Shown here: in pieces, positions 47,728 to 60,108 of the stretch
Position numbering within the stretch: position 1 is the stretch's first letter
Layout: every line of letters starts with the position of its first letter
Assembly (NCBI RefSeq): GCF_001518015.1
Contig: NZ_LPUY01000074.1
Span: 124,001-188,000, forward strand
Direction of reading: 5' to 3'
DNA from: Tritonibacter horizontis
GTDB lineage: Bacteria; Pseudomonadota; Alphaproteobacteria; Rhodobacterales; Rhodobacteraceae
Length of the DNA: 64,000 bases
The notes under the pieces: generated by a model
Told to the model about the DNA's origin: nothing
Databases searched by the model: none
Seen by the model: only the letters and a program-made list of their open reading frames with translations
Made by a program: the position numbers and the translations under genes

Positions 47728-48381
47728 TCAGTTGCGCACTGAGCTGAGGATGCTTCCCACCGTTTCTTCCCGGAGCTGCGCCTGACCGGCTTCGGAAAAC
47801 AGGGCATCGCCAAAGTTTGTGGCGAAGGTCATCTGGTTTGCCACATTGAAAAAACTCATCGCGCTGATCTGCCAGTGCAGCACCAGCGGCGAAACATCCG
47901 CCCGGAACACGCCCGCCGCCTTGCCGGCCTCGCAGATACGTTCCAGCTGTTTGATCGCCACAGAGTTCGTGGTGGCCAGGTTTTGCAATTCGCGCAGGTG
48001 ACGGGCGTTGTGAATATTCTCGATCATCACCAACCGAATGAACTCCGGGTTGGCCCGGTGGTGATCAAAGGTGAATTCCACCAGTTTCCGCAGCGCGGCC
48101 ATCGGCTCCAACCCGTCCAGGTCCAGCTCGGATTCTGCTTTTCGCACGCTGGCGTATTCCGCTTCGAGCACCGCGCGGTAGAGCCCTTCCTTGTCGCCGA
48201 AATAGTAAAAGATCATCCGTTTGGAGGTTTTGATCCGTTCCGCGATCACCTGCACTCTGGCGCCGGACAGACCGTGCTCTGCGATTTCCGCCCGGGCCGC
48301 CCGCAGGATATCCGCCTTGACGGCTTCGGGATCCTGTTTCCAGGACCGACCGACGTTTTTTTTCACTGTTTTTTCAGCCAT
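47728..48381 (-). CDS. TetR-family repressor of the adjacent shikimate-type operon
   Basis: A 217-residue TetR/AcrR regulator. The HTH is GARVQVIAERIKTSKRMIFYYFGDKEGLYRAV (in part), followed by the ligand-binding helical domain, which contains segments such as MIENIHNARHLREL. It is divergent from the dehydrogenase-TRAP-QuiC operon and the gap has two palindromic operators, so it very likely represses the operon and itself, with induction by shikimate, quinate or a product. The ATG at 48381 is chosen; in-frame starts at 48399 and 48417 are possible. Confidence 0.85.
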   Translation of the reverse strand: MAEKTVKKNVGRSWKQDPEAVKADILRAARAEIAEHGLSGARVQVIAERIKTSKRMIFYYFGDKEGLYRAVLEAEYASVRKAESELDLDGLEPMAALRKLVEFTFDHHRANPEFIRLVMIENIHNARHLRELQNLATTNSVAIKQLERICEAGKAAGVFRADVSPLVLHWQISAMSFFNVANQMTFATNFGDALFSEAGQAQLREETVGSILSSVRN

Positions 48382-48417
48382 TTCACCCGCTTCCCTCATC
48401 TGTCCTAATTGGCACAT

Positions 48418-48464
48418 TTAACCGCGCGGTTCAATCCTGTTGACTAAATTAACCGCACGGTTCA
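48418..48464. promoter_or_regulatory. Two TetR operators and promoter of the dehydrogenase operon
   Basis: Two almost identical 16-base sites, TTAACCGCGCGGTTCA at 48418-48433 and TTAACCGCACGGTTCA at 48449-48464, stand 31 bases apart, that is, three helical turns. A TTGACT (-35-like, 48440-48445) precedes the second site so that this site fills the spacer to a weak -10-like CATTTT. The palindrome class (AACCGnnCGGTT) is the one used by many TetR-family proteins. Confidence 0.8.
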
Positions 48465-48528
48465 TTTTGGGGCAAGAGAGAGATTCGGACGAGCCACGAT
48501 GAGGCTTGTCATGTGGGGAGGACATCAG

Positions 48529-49404
48529 ATGCGCGAAAGTGGCGAGACGCTGCTGGCTGGGCTTGTGGGGCGGGGGATCCAGCTTTCGCGGACCCCGGCG
48601 ATGCATGTCGCAGAGGCAGAATCGCAAGGCATGCATGCCGCCTATCAGCTACTTGATGCCGACCTGTTGGATCGGCCGCTGGCCGAGATCCTCGATGCGG
48701 CAGAGATGATGGGGTTCAGCGGGCTGAACGTCACCTATCCGTTCAAGATCGAGGTTCTGCCGCTGCTTGATACGCTGTCCACCAACGCCAAATCGGTTGG
48801 CGCGGTCAATACGATCGCGTTTCGTGACGGCCGCCGGTTTGGCCATAACACGGACCTTTGGGGGTTTGCCGAGGGGCTGCGGCGCGGGCTTCCCGGGGCG
48901 GCATTGGACCATGTGCTGCAGTTCGGCGCCGGTGGCGCCGGCGTTGCGGTTGCCCATGCGCTGGCGGAACTTGGGGTTCGGCAGCTGTCGATTGTCGATG
49001 TCGACCCGGAACGGGCCGCAACATTGGCAACGCAGATTGCGCATACCCATGAAACCTGCGCCGCGGTTGCGGTCGAAGATGCCGCTGCCCTGATCCAATC
49101 CGACCGCCCTGACGGGATCGTCAACGCCACCCCGATGGGCATGGCCAAACTGCCCGGCACAGCCGTCGAAACCAGTTTGCTCCAGCCCACGATGTGGGTG
49201 GCGGATATCGTATATTTCCCTTTGGAAACAGAGTTGTTGCGGGCTGCGCGCGCCCGTGGCTGCCGGGTTCTGCCCGGATCCGGAATGGCCGTGTTTCAGG
49301 CCGTGCGCGCCTTTGAACTGTTTACCGGCCGCAAGGCTGATCCAATCCGGATGAAGGCAACATTCGACGCCTTTGTCCCATCGCGCGATCCCGCGCACAC
49401 CTGA
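48529..49404 (+). CDS. Shikimate/quinate-type dehydrogenase, probably NAD-dependent and catabolic
   Basis: A 291-residue AroE-family enzyme. Catalytic Lys73 in NVTYPFK and Asp109 in NTDLWG are in place; the dinucleotide motif is GAGGAG (133-138). After the second strand the sequence is IVDVDPERA, with Asp where NADPH-dependent biosynthetic AroE has the NRT motif, so NAD+ is favoured, as in catabolic shikimate/quinate dehydrogenases. Oxidation of shikimate to 3-dehydroshikimate fits the downstream QuiC gene. The ATG at 48529 has GGAGG at 8 bases; two earlier ATGs lack a site. Confidence 0.87.
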   Translation: MRESGETLLAGLVGRGIQLSRTPAMHVAEAESQGMHAAYQLLDADLLDRPLAEILDAAEMMGFSGLNVTYPFKIEVLPLLDTLSTNAKSVGAVNTIAFRDGRRFGHNTDLWGFAEGLRRGLPGAALDHVLQFGAGGAGVAVAHALAELGVRQLSIVDVDPERAATLATQIAHTHETCAAVAVEDAAALIQSDRPDGIVNATPMGMAKLPGTAVETSLLQPTMWVADIVYFPLETELLRAARARGCRVLPGSGMAVFQAVRAFELFTGRKADPIRMKATFDAFVPSRDPAHT

Positions 49405-49437
49405 AGACCTGACTTTGCTTATCGGGAGGAGAAAAGC

Positions 49438-50448
49438 ATGACTAAAACTTTCACCAAATGGGCCACAGTCGCCGCAACGGCATTGACCCTTGGCATGGGC
49501 GCAACGGCGCAGGCGCAAACTCTTCGTCTGGCTCACGTGGACCCGGACGACTGGACCGCATCGAAAAAGGGCGCCGCCGCCCATGTGTTCAAGAACATCG
49601 TCGAAGGCGAAACCGACCTGACGGTAGAGCTGTTCCCAGCCGGTGCGCTCGGCAACGAGGATGAACTGATCGGCCAGGCACAGGAAGGTCTGACCCAGGT
49701 GGTCCTGGTTTCCGGTGCCATGTCCAAGGTCTGCCCGGCGGCTTCCGTTCTGGATATTCCCTACACGTTTTCCTCGGCCACCGTCGCCTGGGAAGTGCTG
49801 GACGGTCCCTTCGGTGACGATCTGGCCGCGCATTGTCTTGAACAGACCGGCCTGCGCACCCTTGCCTATGGCGAAACCGGGTTCCGCAACTTCACCAACA
49901 ACACCCGCGAGATCAAAAGCCCCGCAGATATGGAAGGGCTGAAGTTCCGCGTGCAGCCGATCCCGCTCTATGTGGAAATGGTCAAGGGCCTGGGCGGCGA
50001 GCCGACCCCGATTGCCTGGACCGAACTGCCGAATGCGCTGTCGACCGGTGTCGTCGATGGTCAGGAAAACCCGGTTGGTGTGATCTACAACAACTCCCTG
50101 CACAAGCTGCAGAAATACATGACCCTAGACGGCCATGTCTATGCGGCTGATTTCATTCTGATTTCGGATGAGTTCTATGAGGGCCTGGAACCGGCCGAGC
50201 AGGAAGTGGTCAAGAAAGCCGCCCGTGTGGCAGGCACCATGGGCCGTGCGATCCAGCAATGGGGCACTGCCGAGGGCGTGAACAAGGTGCAGGCCGAGGG
50301 CATGCAGGTCTATTCGCCGACTGCCGACGAGATTGCAGCCTTTGCGGAAAAGGCGCAGCCTGCTGTGGTAGACTATCTGCGCGGCGAACTGGGTGACGAT
50401 GCCGTCTGGATCGACAACCTTCAGGCCGCCGTTGCCGCCACCAACTGA
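49438..50448 (+). CDS. TRAP transporter periplasmic binding protein (DctP type)
   Basis: A 336-residue solute-binding protein with a signal peptide ending near TAQAQ. The DctP family fold is clear: LRLAHVDPDD, the hallmark carboxylate-binding arginine in GLKFRVQPIP, and the later VVDGQENPVGVI. The Arg binds an organic-acid carboxylate, consistent with shikimate or quinate. AGGAG precedes the ATG by 7 bases. A T-less strong hairpin follows it. Confidence 0.9.
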   Translation: MTKTFTKWATVAATALTLGMGATAQAQTLRLAHVDPDDWTASKKGAAAHVFKNIVEGETDLTVELFPAGALGNEDELIGQAQEGLTQVVLVSGAMSKVCPAASVLDIPYTFSSATVAWEVLDGPFGDDLAAHCLEQTGLRTLAYGETGFRNFTNNTREIKSPADMEGLKFRVQPIPLYVEMVKGLGGEPTPIAWTELPNALSTGVVDGQENPVGVIYNNSLHKLQKYMTLDGHVYAADFILISDEFYEGLEPAEQEVVKKAARVAGTMGRAIQQWGTAEGVNKVQAEGMQVYSPTADEIAAFAEKAQPAVVDYLRGELGDDAVWIDNLQAAVAATN

Positions 50449-50460
50449 TACTTGAACACC

Positions 50461-50489
50461 CCGGACCGCCCTGTCGTGGGGCGGTCCGG
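50461..50489 (+). other. Strong hairpin between dctP and dctQ
   Basis: CCGGACCGCCC (50461-50471) pairs perfectly with GGGCGGTCCGG (50479-50489), loop TGTCGTG. No T run follows. It is 12 bases past the dctP stop and about 20 before dctQ. Likely function is protection of the SBP transcript, raising DctP over DctQM. Confidence 0.8.
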
Positions 50490-50509
50490 TCACCATAAAG
50501 GTCACTGCC

Positions 50510-51037
50510 ATGCACAGTCTCAATCGCCTTGTCGAACGGATCCTCGCCGGCCTGTCGGGCCTGTCCATCGCCCTGGTCTTTTCCATCATCTTCGTGAACG
50601 CGCTGCGGCGCTACACACTTGGCAAGTCCCTGCCCTGGGGCGAAGAATTGCCGATCTATCTCACCATCTACGGGGTCATGTTCGGCGTTGCCCTCGCCTA
50701 TATGCAGGACCGCCACATTCGCTTTACCGTGCTGACGGAATTCCTGTCCGAGCGGGTGCGCGCGCGGCTTTGGTTGCTGGTGGACGGGATCACTGCGCTC
50801 AGCGGCCTGGGTCTGATGTTCGCGGGCCATGCCTTTGCGGTCCGGCGCGGCAACCTCGACTCCTCTGGTCTGAAATCGGCCGCGGGCTGGCTCAGTGACA
50901 CCACCGGGTTTGAGACATTGCTCTGGATCGGGAAGACCGGCACCTGGCAATATGCCATGCCCATCGGCGGCGCGCTCCTGTGCCTCGCTGCGACCCTGAA
51001 ATTCGCGGAACGTCTCTCCGCCCTGCGGAGCGCATGA
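50510..51037 (+). CDS. TRAP transporter small permease (DctQ type)
   Basis: A 175-residue four-helix membrane protein with family features: VFSIIFVNALRRYTLGKSLPWGEELPIYLTIYG. The motif GEELP is typical of DctQ proteins. DctQ binds the large permease, and the pair uses the sodium gradient. It overlaps the next gene by four bases (ATGA). Confidence 0.88.
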   Translation: MHSLNRLVERILAGLSGLSIALVFSIIFVNALRRYTLGKSLPWGEELPIYLTIYGVMFGVALAYMQDRHIRFTVLTEFLSERVRARLWLLVDGITALSGLGLMFAGHAFAVRRGNLDSSGLKSAAGWLSDTTGFETLLWIGKTGTWQYAMPIGGALLCLAATLKFAERLSALRSA

Positions 51038-52314
51038 CCATGGTTTACGTTGTTCTGATTGCCGGTCTTCTCATCGGCGCCCCGATTGCAATTGCCATCA
51101 TCTCTGCCCTGCTGGTGTTTATGGCAACGGGAGAGGCCCCCTACAGCTTGCGGATTGTCGCCTCCGAGATGTTCCGCAGCATGAATTCCTTCCCATTGCT
51201 GGCCATTCCGCTGTTTGTGCTGGCCGGAGAGCTGATGAACGAAAGCGGGATCACCGGCCGCATCATTGCCTTTGCCAATGTTCTGGTCGGGCGGATGCGG
51301 GCCGGGCTGGCGTTGGTCAATATCTGGGCTTCGGTGATCTTTGCGGGTCTGTCCGGGTCTGCGGTTGCCGATACCTCCGCCATCGGGCGGGTCTTTATCC
51401 CCGAGATGGAAAAACACGGTTACGACCGGTCCTTTGCGGCGGCGCTGACGGCGGCATCGTCGGTGATCGGCCCGATCATTCCGCCCTCGATCCCGGTCAT
51501 CATCTATGCGCTGATCGTCTCCGGCGTGTCCGTGCCGGCGCTGTTTATGGCCGGGGTCATTCCGGGGCTGATGCTGGCGCTGTTCCTGTCGGCCTATGTC
51601 ATGCTGACGGTCAAGGTAAAGGACCCTGCCCCCGGCGTTACCTCCGACACCCAATCCGCAGGTCAGGCGCTGCTGGGCGGCATCCTGCCGCTGCTGATGC
51701 CGGTTTTTGTCGTCGGCTCCATCCTGATCGGGGTGGTAACCCCGACCGAGGCGGCGTCTTTTGCTGTGGCTTACGCCTTGTTTCTGGGCGCGTTTGTCTA
51801 CCGCAAGATCACCCTGACCTCCCTGCCCCGGATCTTTACCGATGCCATGCGGGACAGTGCCGTGATCCTGGTGATCATCGCCGCCGTGGGCGCTGCCAAC
51901 TGGCTTTTGACCTATAACCGCGTGCCCAACATGCTCACCGATTGGGTGCTTGGAAACGTGGAGAGCAAGACCATGTTCCTGATCGCGGTCATCCTGCTGT
52001 TTCTCTTTGTCGGTCTCTTTCTTGAGGGGATCGCTGCGATGCTGGTGCTGGTGCCGATCCTGCACCCCATTGCGGTCTCCATGGGGGTTGATCCGGTCCA
52101 CTTCGGCATTCTGGTGATTTTCAACCTGATGATTGGTCTCATCACGCCGCCCTTGGGTCTGTGCATGTTTGTCGCCGAAGGCATTGCCCAGGTCGGCATG
52201 GCGCGGCTGACCCGCTCGATCCTGCCGTTCTTCCTGGTCGAGGTGGTGGTGCTGCTGATCCTGACCTTCGTGCCGGAAACCGTGATCTGGCTGCCCCGCG
52301 TGCTTGGATATTGA
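51034..52314 (+). CDS. TRAP transporter large permease (DctM type)
   Basis: A 426-residue permease with about a dozen membrane segments of the DctM/ion-transporter superfamily. Family motifs include FAGLSGSAVADTSAIGRVFIP, PSIPVIIYALIVSGVSV and GLITPPLGLCMFV. Start at 51034 overlaps the dctQ stop; a second ATG at 51040 is possible. It completes a three-gene TRAP system between two shikimate-type enzymes. Confidence 0.92.
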   Translation: MTMVYVVLIAGLLIGAPIAIAIISALLVFMATGEAPYSLRIVASEMFRSMNSFPLLAIPLFVLAGELMNESGITGRIIAFANVLVGRMRAGLALVNIWASVIFAGLSGSAVADTSAIGRVFIPEMEKHGYDRSFAAALTAASSVIGPIIPPSIPVIIYALIVSGVSVPALFMAGVIPGLMLALFLSAYVMLTVKVKDPAPGVTSDTQSAGQALLGGILPLLMPVFVVGSILIGVVTPTEAASFAVAYALFLGAFVYRKITLTSLPRIFTDAMRDSAVILVIIAAVGAANWLLTYNRVPNMLTDWVLGNVESKTMFLIAVILLFLFVGLFLEGIAAMLVLVPILHPIAVSMGVDPVHFGILVIFNLMIGLITPPLGLCMFVAEGIAQVGMARLTRSILPFFLVEVVVLLILTFVPETVIWLPRVLGY

Positions 52315-52327
52315 GGGAAACCCGCAG

Positions 52328-54217
52328 ATGAAAACGTCCATCGCCACTGTCTCGATCTCCGGTAACCTGCTTGAAAAACTGGACGCGATCGCCAAGGCGG
52401 GATTTGGCGGGATCGAGATCTTTGAACAGGATTTTCTGACCCACGAAGGTACCCCGCGCGAGGTCGGTCAGATGATCCGCGATCACGGGCTGGAGATCAC
52501 TCTGTTTCAGCCCTTTCGGGATTTCGAATGCCTGCCGGGAGCCCTGCGCGACAAAGCGTTTGACCGGGCGGAACGAAAATTCGATCTGATGCAGGAGCTG
52601 GGGACCGATCTCGTGCTGATCTGTTCCTCGGTGCATCCACAGGCCCTTGGCGGAATTGAACGGGCGGCGGATGATCTCAACGAACTGGGCGGGCGCGCCG
52701 CGGCGCGCGGCCTGCGTGTCGGATATGAAGCCCTGGCCTGGGGGCGGCATGTCAATGACCACCGGGATGCCTGGGAAATCGTGCGCCGGGCCGATCACGA
52801 CAACGTTGGTCTGATCCTCGACAGTTTCCACACCTTGGGGCGCAAGCTCAGCCCGGAGAGCATTCGCGCCATTCCCGGCGACAAGATTTTTTTCGTGCAG
52901 CTGGCGGATGCGCCGCAGATCGACATGGATCTGCTGTATTGGTCGCGGCATTTCCGAAACATGCCGGGCGAAGGCGATCTGGATGTGACCGGGTTCATGC
53001 GCGCGGTGATGGCAGCCGGATACCAGGGGCCCATCAGCCTTGAGATTTTCAACGATCAGTTCCGGGGGTCCAACCCGCTGGCCGTGGCGCAGGATGGGTA
53101 TCGTTCGTTGGTTGCGTTGATGGATGACGTGCGCCGGACAGAGCCGTCGGCCGCCGTTGCCCTGCCCGCCTTCCCGCCCCGGATCGAGACAGATGGCGTT
53201 GCCTTTGTCGAATTTGCCGCGCGGGGCGAGGCGGCCGCCGGGCTGGGACGGACCTTGGCGACACTCGGTTTTCGCCGGGTCGGCAGCCATCGCAACAAAT
53301 CCATCACCCTCTGGCAACAGGGAGAGGTGCGCATCGCGGTGAATTCGGAAACCGAAGGCCATGCCGCCAGCACCTGGAACGCCCGTGGCACCTCGGTCTG
53401 TGACGTGGGGCTCTCGGTGCGCTCTGCGGCCGATACCGTCGCGCGGGCGCAGGCCCTTGGGGCGCATCCCTTTGGTCAACCGCTGGGGCCGGGCGAATTG
53501 GACATTCCCGCGATCCGCGGGCTTGGCGGTTCGGTCCTGCATTTCCTTGAGCCAGAGCCGGAAGGCGCGCAGGTCTGGGATGTGGAATTTGTGACAGATG
53601 CGGCGCCACAAACGGCAGAGGCCGGCCTGACCCGCATCGACCACCTTGCCCAGACCATGAGCTATGAAGATATGCTCAGCTGGTCGCTGTTCTATACGTC
53701 CCTGTTTGATATGCATAAAATGCCGATGATCGATGTTGTCGATCCCGACGGGCTGGTGCGCAGTCAGGCGATCGGGACACCGGATGGCAGCCTTCGCATC
53801 ACGCTGAACGGGGCCGAAACCCACCGCACGCTGGCGGGCAATTTCCTGGCCGAAAGCTTTGGCGCCTCGGTTCAACATCTGGCCTTTGCAACCGATGATA
53901 TCTTTGCCACGGCCCCGCAACTTGCGGATCTGGGGTTCGAGGCGCTGGTGATCCCTGCCAACTATTACGACGACATCGCCGCACGTTTCGACATCGCGCC
54001 CGACCGACTGGCGGCGATGAAAGCGGCGAATATTCTGTACGATGCCGAAGGTGAGGCGGAGTTTTTCCAACTTTTCTCGCGCAGTTTTGCGGGCGGTGTC
54101 TTCTTTGAAATCGTGCAGCGCGGTGAAGGGTATAAAGGGTTCGGCGGTCCCAACGCGCCGTTCCGCATCGCCGCTCAAAAACGGCTGATGCGGGCCAAGG
54201 GGATGCCACAGAAGTAG
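52328..54217 (+). CDS. quiC: QuiC-type 3-dehydroshikimate dehydratase fused to an HPPD-like domain
   Basis: A 629-residue two-domain protein. The N-terminal TIM barrel (residues 1-280, sugar-phosphate-isomerase/epimerase-like) keeps the metal ligands known for this class of dehydratase: Glu134, Asp165, Gln191, Glu239 in YEALAW, LDSFH, VQLADA and SLEIFND. The C-terminal part (about 290-620) has the vicinal-oxygen-chelate fold of 4-hydroxyphenylpyruvate dioxygenase, with His440, His518 and Glu595 as an intact-looking metal triad. The N-domain converts 3-dehydroshikimate to protocatechuate. The activity of the second domain is not known. It ends the operon. Confidence 0.87.
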   Translation: MKTSIATVSISGNLLEKLDAIAKAGFGGIEIFEQDFLTHEGTPREVGQMIRDHGLEITLFQPFRDFECLPGALRDKAFDRAERKFDLMQELGTDLVLICSSVHPQALGGIERAADDLNELGGRAAARGLRVGYEALAWGRHVNDHRDAWEIVRRADHDNVGLILDSFHTLGRKLSPESIRAIPGDKIFFVQLADAPQIDMDLLYWSRHFRNMPGEGDLDVTGFMRAVMAAGYQGPISLEIFNDQFRGSNPLAVAQDGYRSLVALMDDVRRTEPSAAVALPAFPPRIETDGVAFVEFAARGEAAAGLGRTLATLGFRRVGSHRNKSITLWQQGEVRIAVNSETEGHAASTWNARGTSVCDVGLSVRSAADTVARAQALGAHPFGQPLGPGELDIPAIRGLGGSVLHFLEPEPEGAQVWDVEFVTDAAPQTAEAGLTRIDHLAQTMSYEDMLSWSLFYTSLFDMHKMPMIDVVDPDGLVRSQAIGTPDGSLRITLNGAETHRTLAGNFLAESFGASVQHLAFATDDIFATAPQLADLGFEALVIPANYYDDIAARFDIAPDRLAAMKAANILYDAEGEAEFFQLFSRSFAGGVFFEIVQRGEGYKGFGGPNAPFRIAAQKRLMRAKGMPQK

Positions 54218-58906: not shown

Positions 58907-59356
58907 ATGACGAGCATTTTGATCCTCAACGGACCGAACCTGAATTTGCTGGGCACGCGCCAGCCGGAGGTTTATGGCCGTGAAACCCTGGCGATGGTCG
59001 AAGAGAAATGTCAGCGCCACGGAACCTCCGCCGGGGTCGAGATCACATGCCTGCAGTCGAACCATGAAGGTGTGTTGTTGGATGCAATCCACGCGGCAAA
59101 GGGCCGCCATGATGGGATCATTCTGAACGCTGGCGCCTTCACCCATAGTTCGGTGGCATTGATGGATGCGATCTATTCGGTCGAAGTGCCGACGATCGAG
59201 GTGCATCTGTCAAATATCCACGCGCGCGAGAGTTTTCGCCAAACCTCCTATATCTCCAAGGCGGTGATCGGCCAGATTTGCGGCTTTGGCTCCTTTGGCT
59301 ACCTGATGGCGATTGATGCGCTGATCGAACGGTTCAAGGGTGGCAGTGACGAATGA
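58907..59356 (+). CDS. aroQ: Type II 3-dehydroquinate dehydratase
   Basis: A 149-residue flavodoxin-like dodecameric enzyme that dehydrates 3-dehydroquinate. The N-terminal ILILNGPNLNLLGTRQPEVYG is the family signature and holds the catalytic Tyr; NAGAFTHSSVALMDA and EVHLSNIHARESFR complete the active site. The ATG has AAGGA 8 bases ahead. It could serve aromatic biosynthesis or quinate degradation. It overlaps the LuxR-type gene by four bases. Confidence 0.96.
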   Translation: MTSILILNGPNLNLLGTRQPEVYGRETLAMVEEKCQRHGTSAGVEITCLQSNHEGVLLDAIHAAKGRHDGIILNAGAFTHSSVALMDAIYSVEVPTIEVHLSNIHARESFRQTSYISKAVIGQICGFGSFGYLMAIDALIERFKGGSDE

Positions 59357-60108
59357 AGGTCGCGGAGTATCTCCATCGGGTGACACAGTTCAGGTCCATC
59401 GCTGATTTGTGGGGCGCTCATGTCGCACAAATGGGGCGGTATGGATTTGACCGTCTCCTTTATGGATATACTCTCTTCAAGACCGAGACCTCGCTTGGCG
59501 ATCCGGACGATTTTGTCGTGCTCAGCAATCATAGTCCTGAGTATCTCAAGGGGTATATCTCGGACGGGCTGTATTCGGATGCGCCGATGTTGCGATGGGC
59601 GCTCGACAATGAGGGCGTTGCCAGTTGGCGTATTGCCCAGGACATGGCCGCGCAGGGTCTGCTGGACCCGCGCGCGCAAGCCACCTTTGATTTCAATATG
59701 CGCATGGGGGTCCGGGCGGGCTATACCATCAGCTTTCATTCCGCCACCCAACGGTTCAAGGGGGCGATTGCCCTCGCCGCGCGACCGGAATCGAGCCAGG
59801 ACGCGGTGGAGGACATCTGGGCAGAGCACGGCCAGGACATCGTTCTGATGAACAATGTGGCACATCTTAAAATTCTCACCCTGCCCTACGAAGCTCCGAA
59901 TCGGGTCCTGACAAAGCGGCAACGAGAGGTGTTGCAGTGGGTCGGAGATGGAAAAACCATTCAGGACATCGCGCTTTTGATGGGGTTGACCAACGCCACC
60001 ATCGAAAAGCACCTGCGGTTGGCGCGCGCGAATTTGTCAGTAGAAACAACAGCTCAAGCTGTTCTGAAGGCCTCGCTTCACAATCAGATGTACTCGGTCG
60101 GTGGCTAG
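59353..60108 (+). CDS. LuxR-family regulator with autoinducer-binding-like domain, no luxI nearby
   Basis: A 251-residue regulator. The N-terminal 170 residues fit the autoinducer-binding domain: YISDGLYSDAPMLRWALD resembles the Y..D-P and W positions around the acyl-homoserine-lactone pocket, with SWRIAQ further on. The C-terminal HTH_LuxR is LTKRQREVLQWVGDGKTIQDIALLMGLTNATIEKHL (in part). No luxI-type synthase is in the window, so it is a solo regulator here. Translation is coupled to aroQ by ATGA, an odd linkage. Confidence 0.85.
   Translation: MKVAEYLHRVTQFRSIADLWGAHVAQMGRYGFDRLLYGYTLFKTETSLGDPDDFVVLSNHSPEYLKGYISDGLYSDAPMLRWALDNEGVASWRIAQDMAAQGLLDPRAQATFDFNMRMGVRAGYTISFHSATQRFKGAIALAARPESSQDAVEDIWAEHGQDIVLMNNVAHLKILTLPYEAPNRVLTKRQREVLQWVGDGKTIQDIALLMGLTNATIEKHLRLARANLSVETTAQAVLKASLHNQMYSVGG

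Follow-up and report, generated by a model that had tools for sequence, protein, structure and literature searches.

A putative TetR-controlled operon for import of quinate and/or shikimate and degradation to protocatechuate in Tritonibacter horizontis

Which compound is carried by a TRAP (tripartite ATP-independent periplasmic) transporter whose genes lie between those of two enzymes that act on shikimate and its oxidation product? We asked this question of a locus in Tritonibacter horizontis, found in a window of 64,000 nucleotides (contig NZ_LPUY01000074.1, positions 124,001 to 188,000 of the forward strand) of an assembly of 4.86 Mb in 139 contigs (99.79% complete). In this locus a TetR-family regulator gene is divergent from five genes that run in one direction and encode an AroE-type dehydrogenase (SDH), the TRAP subunits DctP, DctQ and DctM, and a QuiC-type dehydratase (Table 1); the coordinates and the family profiles bear out this layout, with all six genes at the positions and in the orientations first described. 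We consider it highly probable (roughly 0.88) that these genes form a TetR-repressed operon which imports quinate and/or shikimate and degrades them to protocatechuate for growth. An initial annotation of the window had proposed the same import and degradation, and the conserved linkage in other genomes, a gene run in Sulfitobacter sp. W074 that continues into pca genes, and the pca set of the T. horizontis genome itself all agree with it.

In the proposed pathway, DctPQM would take up quinate and/or shikimate from the periplasm, and the AroE-type dehydrogenase would oxidize shikimate to 3-dehydroshikimate, or quinate to 3-dehydroquinate, the latter being converted to 3-dehydroshikimate by the single AroQ of the genome. 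QuiC would then turn 3-dehydroshikimate into protocatechuate, whose ring would be opened by the products of pca genes on another contig. When no inducer is present, TetR would occupy a tandem pair of operators in the promoter region between the divergent genes, the two sites being 31 bp apart.

We examined the neighborhood of DctP relatives in two scans. The first covered 295 genomes of the family (T. horizontis included, drawn from a larger group, with at most seven candidates scored per genome): DctP homologues of at least 71% identity adjoin QuiC and SDH in 9/9 genomes (T. horizontis included), and the 20 kb of each of four other homologues (41–45% identity) are free of QuiC, SDH and AroQ. 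The second scan, of named genomes, took the best 80 of 574 confirmed DctP relatives, with the lower identity band being a sample and short contigs being kept. Of its 42 loci with a DctP identity of at least 54%, 38 have QuiC within 9 kb, 39 have SDH, 16 have AroQ, and 40 have one or more of the three, as compared to 0/37 for loci below 50% identity (Fisher p 1.6e-20, a value that ignores shared ancestry). QuiC is also present at locus L204, which has a DctP of 53.9% identity and was counted apart. The members of the DctP clade come from Rhodobacterales, Halomonas/Vreelandella, Thalassospira, Marinomonas, Marinobacterium, Zobellella and Vibrio, and their gene orders vary; on two Vibrionaceae plasmids, DctPQM is accompanied by a QuiC from a different lineage (identities of 37 and 40%) and by a GFO/IDH-type oxidoreductase-like gene replacing SDH (the GFO/IDH-type assignment of that gene cluster comes from family profiles run on locus L094). 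The genes could in principle be neighbors by chance and the TRAP substrate unrelated to them, DctP being by sequence a receptor like many others of the DctP family (81 distinct sequences with solved structures match it at E≤1e-10), a family whose ligands are varied. The linkage holds in Alphaproteobacteria as in Gammaproteobacteria even as the QuiC lineage and the gene order change, which makes such a coincidence very hard to believe.

Genes for further degradation of protocatechuate are found as well. In Sulfitobacter sp. W074, TetR is divergent from the run SDH-DctPQM-QuiC-pcaC-pcaH-pcaG-(3-keto-5-aminohexanoate cleavage protein)-pcaD-(3-carboxy-muconate cycloisomerase)-aroQ, and pcaH is over cut-off in 8/8 related genomes with the same TRAP type. 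Salipiger abyssi is, like W074, a culturable relative that has the operon. The initial annotation had found no protocatechuate ring-cleavage genes in the window and had looked to the rest of the genome for them; the one profile search that covered the window, run on the whole genome, gave four matches, all on other contigs. The 4-hydroxybenzoate monooxygenase gene, pcaD, pcaC, pcaH, pcaG and pcaB form one cluster on contig C64, each above an NCBIfam cut-off (for pcaB that of NF004631, not that of TIGR02426), and pcaF is over cut-off on contig C135. No AroQ gene other than that of the window (Table 1) was found in the genome, which has no match to a type I dehydroquinase; this single AroQ must supply biosynthesis and could act in quinate breakdown. 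Besides the SDH of the window, one other gene with an AroE N-terminal domain is present and there is no match to a PQQ (pyrroloquinoline quinone) quinate dehydrogenase in the genome, which points to the window's SDH as the probable catabolic oxidase.

Both enzymes have features in keeping with the proposed pathway. SDH scores 389.9 bits against NCBIfam model NF009201 (AroE-type subfamily PRK12549; cut-off 235), and its closest solved structures are 2nlo and 3jyo, the latter titled quinate/shikimate dehydrogenase and, we take it, the Corynebacterium glutamicum enzyme. The Asp that had been pointed out in this AroE-type protein aligns with an Asp of 3jyo, presumably a mark of NAD (nicotinamide adenine dinucleotide) use. 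For the QuiC-type protein, the top NCBIfam model is QuiC NF042435 (E 1.4e-203, match nearly full length), and the protein aligns with Pseudomonas putida QuiC1 (5HMQ) across residues 1–619 (E 2e-177). The ten active-site residues given for QsuB and QuiC1 in PMC7442255 are all kept, with identical numbering (R64, L97, E134, L136, D165, H168, Q191, S206, R210 and E239). With its two domains and these residues in place, the earlier call of a QuiC-type dehydratase holds, and 3-dehydroshikimate dehydratase activity is predicted. The second domain resembles HPPD (4-hydroxyphenylpyruvate dioxygenase) and retains His439, His517 and Glu594, which, by comparison with HPPD, we take to be iron ligands; the same residues are aligned in 5HMQ. 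According to PMC7442255, the HPPD-like domain has no activity on protocatechuate.

The operator-like pair between the divergent TetR and SDH genes (Table 1) has a TTGACT hexamer between its two members (48440–48445); a promoter scan gave no full match, and a terminator scan gave nothing. The relatives share a less strict tandem motif, in which a sequence close to ATGWACCNNNCGGTTAAWT occurs two times, 30–33 bp apart. A strict palindrome was also tried as the operator pattern and failed in most of the relatives. We scored the tandem pair upstream of TetR in 24 loci (10 with the window's TRAP, eight with another TRAP clade, three with a tripartite tricarboxylate transporter (TTT), two with neither according to the probes, and Sinorhizobium meliloti), and in a leave-one-out comparison 23/24 score higher than each of 200 mononucleotide shuffles of the region concerned, L114 being the weakest among the 23. 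Since the form of the motif was picked by eye after viewing the sequences and relatives of the left-out locus stayed in training (the shuffles, moreover, were mononucleotide only), these numbers are to be read as supportive, not strict. Across the whole genome, a perfect match is seen at the two window sites only, which indicates that TetR and the tandem operators are probably a local switch; with two mismatches, there are 12 matches in the genome (four at the window), as compared to 10 for a reversed-pattern control.

The spacings between the forward genes are 33, 61, −4 and 13 bp, and this closeness makes it plausible that the five genes share one transcript. As for the starts, SDH may begin at 48529 instead of 48499, where its open reading frame (ORF) begins, DctM most likely begins at 51034 (the ORF itself is listed from a GTG at 50980), the QuiC start was placed at 52328, and the true start of TetR is perhaps an internal Met at 48381. 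Outside the operon, the AroQ gene overlaps by a few bases the gene of a LuxR-type regulator with an autoinducer-binding domain (59353–60108).

Table 1. Features of the T. horizontis locus (positions are those of the window)
Feature	Position	Strand	Basis
TetR-family repressor, probable local regulator	47728–48417	-	TetR_N and TetR_C_29; homologues at the same operons in relatives
Operator 1 (putative), AACCGCGCGGTT core, conserved tandem TetR site	48420–48431		Motif comparison
Operator 2 (putative), AACCGCACGGTT core, 31 bp from operator 1	48451–48462		Motif comparison
AroE-type quinate/shikimate dehydrogenase (SDH)	48529–49404	+	Shikimate_dh_N, NF009201
DctP, TRAP substrate-binding protein (clade linked to QuiC, SDH and AroQ)	49438–50448	+	Pfam DctP over cut-off, tree
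DctQ, small TRAP membrane subunit	50510–51037	+	Pfam over cut-off
DctM, large TRAP membrane subunit	51034–52314	+	Pfam over cut-off
QuiC-type two-domain 3-dehydroshikimate dehydratase	52328–54217	+	Xylose-isomerase-like barrel and HPPD-like domain
AroQ, type II 3-dehydroquinate dehydratase, outside the operon	58907–59356	+	Profile search

Several observations weigh against an operon for quinate and/or shikimate degradation. The QuiC-type protein (677.9 bits) is below the equivalog cut-off of NF042435 (1200), for which reason we use the name QuiC-type and not that of NCBI's equivalog, and SDH (278.3 bits) is under the cut-off (515) of NF010631, the model for NAD quinate/shikimate dehydrogenase. 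DctP is just 33% identical to SMb20036, the S. meliloti receptor for which quinate binding was measured, and the S. meliloti TetR region has no clear operator pair (5/200 shuffles reach its score). The L190 and L192 loci lack QuiC, SDH and AroQ alike to a distance of 9 kb, though a QuiC is present elsewhere in the genome of L192. Rhodovulum strictum (L164) and the metagenome-assembled genome of L167 have SDH and no QuiC match at E≤1e-60 genome-wide. G293, the one same-genus genome searched, is without a full-length QuiC and without a close DctP, so the distribution of the operon is patchy. In R. strictum, where SDH-DctPQM is kept, imported shikimate might supply biosynthesis instead.

The preference between quinate and shikimate is not decidable from sequence, quinate being at least as likely, since AroQ, which is needed for quinate and not for shikimate, is near 16 of the 42 clade loci and ends the W074 run. 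The initial annotation knew of no established TRAP transporter paired with shikimate enzymes, and we rejected this claim of novelty on the basis of a quinate TRAP transporter of S. meliloti. According to PMC3454389, the TRAP transporter SMb20034-36 is encoded next to SMb20037, which is annotated as AroE; SMb20036 is induced 8.7-fold by quinate, and the SMb20036 receptor binds quinate with a dissociation constant of 5.9 nM, as compared to about 1e-4 M for shikimate. By analogy, the transporter of the window may be mainly a quinate importer with shikimate as a minor substrate, and we would give this even odds. In its favor, the S. meliloti TetR and SDH are 48% (200 aligned columns) and 50% (287 aligned columns) identical to those of the window, AroQ is within 9 kb at 16/42 clade loci versus 0/37 others, and, as a weak hint, Y144 and E180 of DctP are common to SMb20036, the pair being found in 3/90 non-clade sequences, of which SMb20036 is one. 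The low identity of DctP to SMb20036 speaks against it, as do the 26/42 clade loci with no AroQ within 9 kb and the position of AroQ outside the window's operon, in a genome whose single AroQ must also serve biosynthesis.

A preference for shikimate is possible, if doubtful. The operon of the window contains just SDH and QuiC, the enzymes that shikimate needs, with no AroQ in the run, and W39, K43, K44, T147 and D238, invariant in the window's DctP clade, are absent from SMb20036; the AroQ-bearing relatives in the same clade argue the other way. No TRAP receptor for shikimate is reported in the literature searched. We regard it as improbable that SDH is a side enzyme and that the cargo of the transporter is 3-dehydroshikimate, protocatechuate or another hydroaromatic acid. 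Protocatechuate import by a TRAP transporter is reported for Rhizobium leguminosarum, identified by induction (PMC3333776), yet SDH, which import of 3-dehydroshikimate or protocatechuate would leave unneeded, is the commonest of the three tested clade neighbors (39/42), and QuiC would likewise be unneeded for protocatechuate. Vibrio natriegens may offer a further counterexample by analogy: PMC13253662 gives no uptake defect after deletion of two TRAP loci near protocatechuate genes, one of these loci adjoining, by locus-tag numbering, a putative 3-dehydroshikimate dehydratase.

DctP, DctQ and DctM each exceed their own Pfam cut-off, confirming the three-part TRAP transporter seen initially. 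R150, R171 and N211 of DctP are present in 55/55 clade sequences and, judging by spacing, would correspond to Arg127, Arg147 and Asn187 of SiaP (residues named in PMC3454389). The Arg that had been proposed to bind the carboxylate of the substrate is indeed conserved; as a pointer to shikimate it fails, since R171 is also present in 90/90 non-clade DctP sequences. These Arg and Asn residues are general across TRAP receptors and therefore uninformative on the ligand, and we dropped the attempt to read the ligand from them. C99 and C133 are found in 55/55 clade DctPs as compared to about 1/90 and 0/90 non-clade sequences, and possibly form a clade-specific disulfide.

In a tree built by a quick method, in which some long branches meet, the window's DctP clade (53 rows, SH-aLRT (Shimodaira–Hasegawa-like approximate likelihood ratio test) support 99) is apart from SMb20036, so that the two receptors do not share a clade, and also apart from a second TRAP clade of QuiC operons. 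In the literature searched on TRAP transporters with quinate or shikimate, with subscription papers mostly outside the search, none of the titles listed concerns this DctP clade or the TetR operon; the clade is therefore without a reported substrate there, while the pairing itself is already known. Tentatively, and with the odds somewhat against us, we suggest that the window's DctP belongs to a separate Alpha- and Gammaproteobacteria TRAP clade for hydroaromatic acids that arose apart from the S. meliloti receptor, perhaps including the first shikimate-preferring TRAP receptor, and that a single conserved TetR/tandem-operator switch governs three interchangeable kinds of transporter, namely TTT and two distant TRAP clades, of which that of the window is one. 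Being found near-always beside QuiC, SDH or AroQ (40/42), the clade allows a single substrate guess to be tested for about 50 sampled genomes at once.

QuiC is also found in other genomic contexts. The QuiC search of the 295 genomes gave 191 matches, HPPD-only ones among them, and we took 85 QuiC loci outside T. horizontis, excluding the HPPD-only matches and two fragments (G234 and G239:C4). In 17 family genomes (L080-L092 and L094-L097), a divergent QuiC (40–49% identity) is mostly in a GntR-GFO/IDH-TRAP-QuiC cluster, in many cases followed by citryl-CoA-lyase-like, TIM-barrel, acylating aldehyde dehydrogenase and TPP (thiamine pyrophosphate)-enzyme genes; pcaH over cut-off is missing in 6/17 of these genomes, hinting at a route that bypasses pca. 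LysR-TctCBA-SDH-QuiC loci (L045, L046, L054 and similar ones) carry an FAD (flavin adenine dinucleotide) dehydrogenase over the NF004789 cut-off, whose top NCBIfam model with a named function is 4-oxocyclohex-2-ene-1-carboxylate 5-dehydrogenase, at a score under the cut-off of that model; this enzyme may bring other cyclohexane acids into the pathway. Two of the QuiC loci with a TRAP-B transporter (L043 and L049) each have three DctP-like genes, a sign of receptor duplication.

Compared with known systems, the locus is like S. meliloti SMb20034-37 in that TRAP components adjoin an AroE-type dehydrogenase and a TetR gene is divergent (SMb20034-36 were placed on pSymB by gene order and the published residue numbers E27 and Q338, and the S. 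meliloti DctQ was assigned by eye only). The two differ in the transporter itself (DctM is 38% identical, and DctP falls in a different clade), in gene order (TRAP-AroE in S. meliloti, SDH-TRAP-QuiC in the window), and in the tandem operators, which are clear in the window only. They also differ in the placement of QuiC: no QuiC match is found in the 11 kb around the S. meliloti TRAP locus, whereas the window has QuiC in the operon; QuiC and pcaC-H-G-B of S. meliloti are also on pSymB, about 130 kb off on the circle. The presumed substrates are plant acids, and S. meliloti, from which a comparable quinate importer is already known, is a root bacterium.

QuiC1 of P. putida has two domains like the dehydratase of the window, and its operon and transporter context reportedly differ. 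The carrier of the C. glutamicum qsuABCD genes is said to be of the major facilitator superfamily (MFS) type, with a different regulator. Their two-domain dehydratase QsuB has the same ten active-site residues as the window's (PMC7442255). The term TRAP is absent from the text of that paper; the window uses TetR and a TRAP transporter. Finally, three loci of the same family as T. horizontis (L113, L115 and L130) have the arrangement TetR-TTT (TctCBA)-SDH-QuiC, with tandem operators and enzyme types as in the window, but with a transporter family unrelated to TRAP (in L113, TctA, TctC and TctB each exceed the Pfam cut-off). Finding one regulator site in front of operons that use three kinds of transporter gives a clear, testable case of transporter swapping in one catabolic operon.

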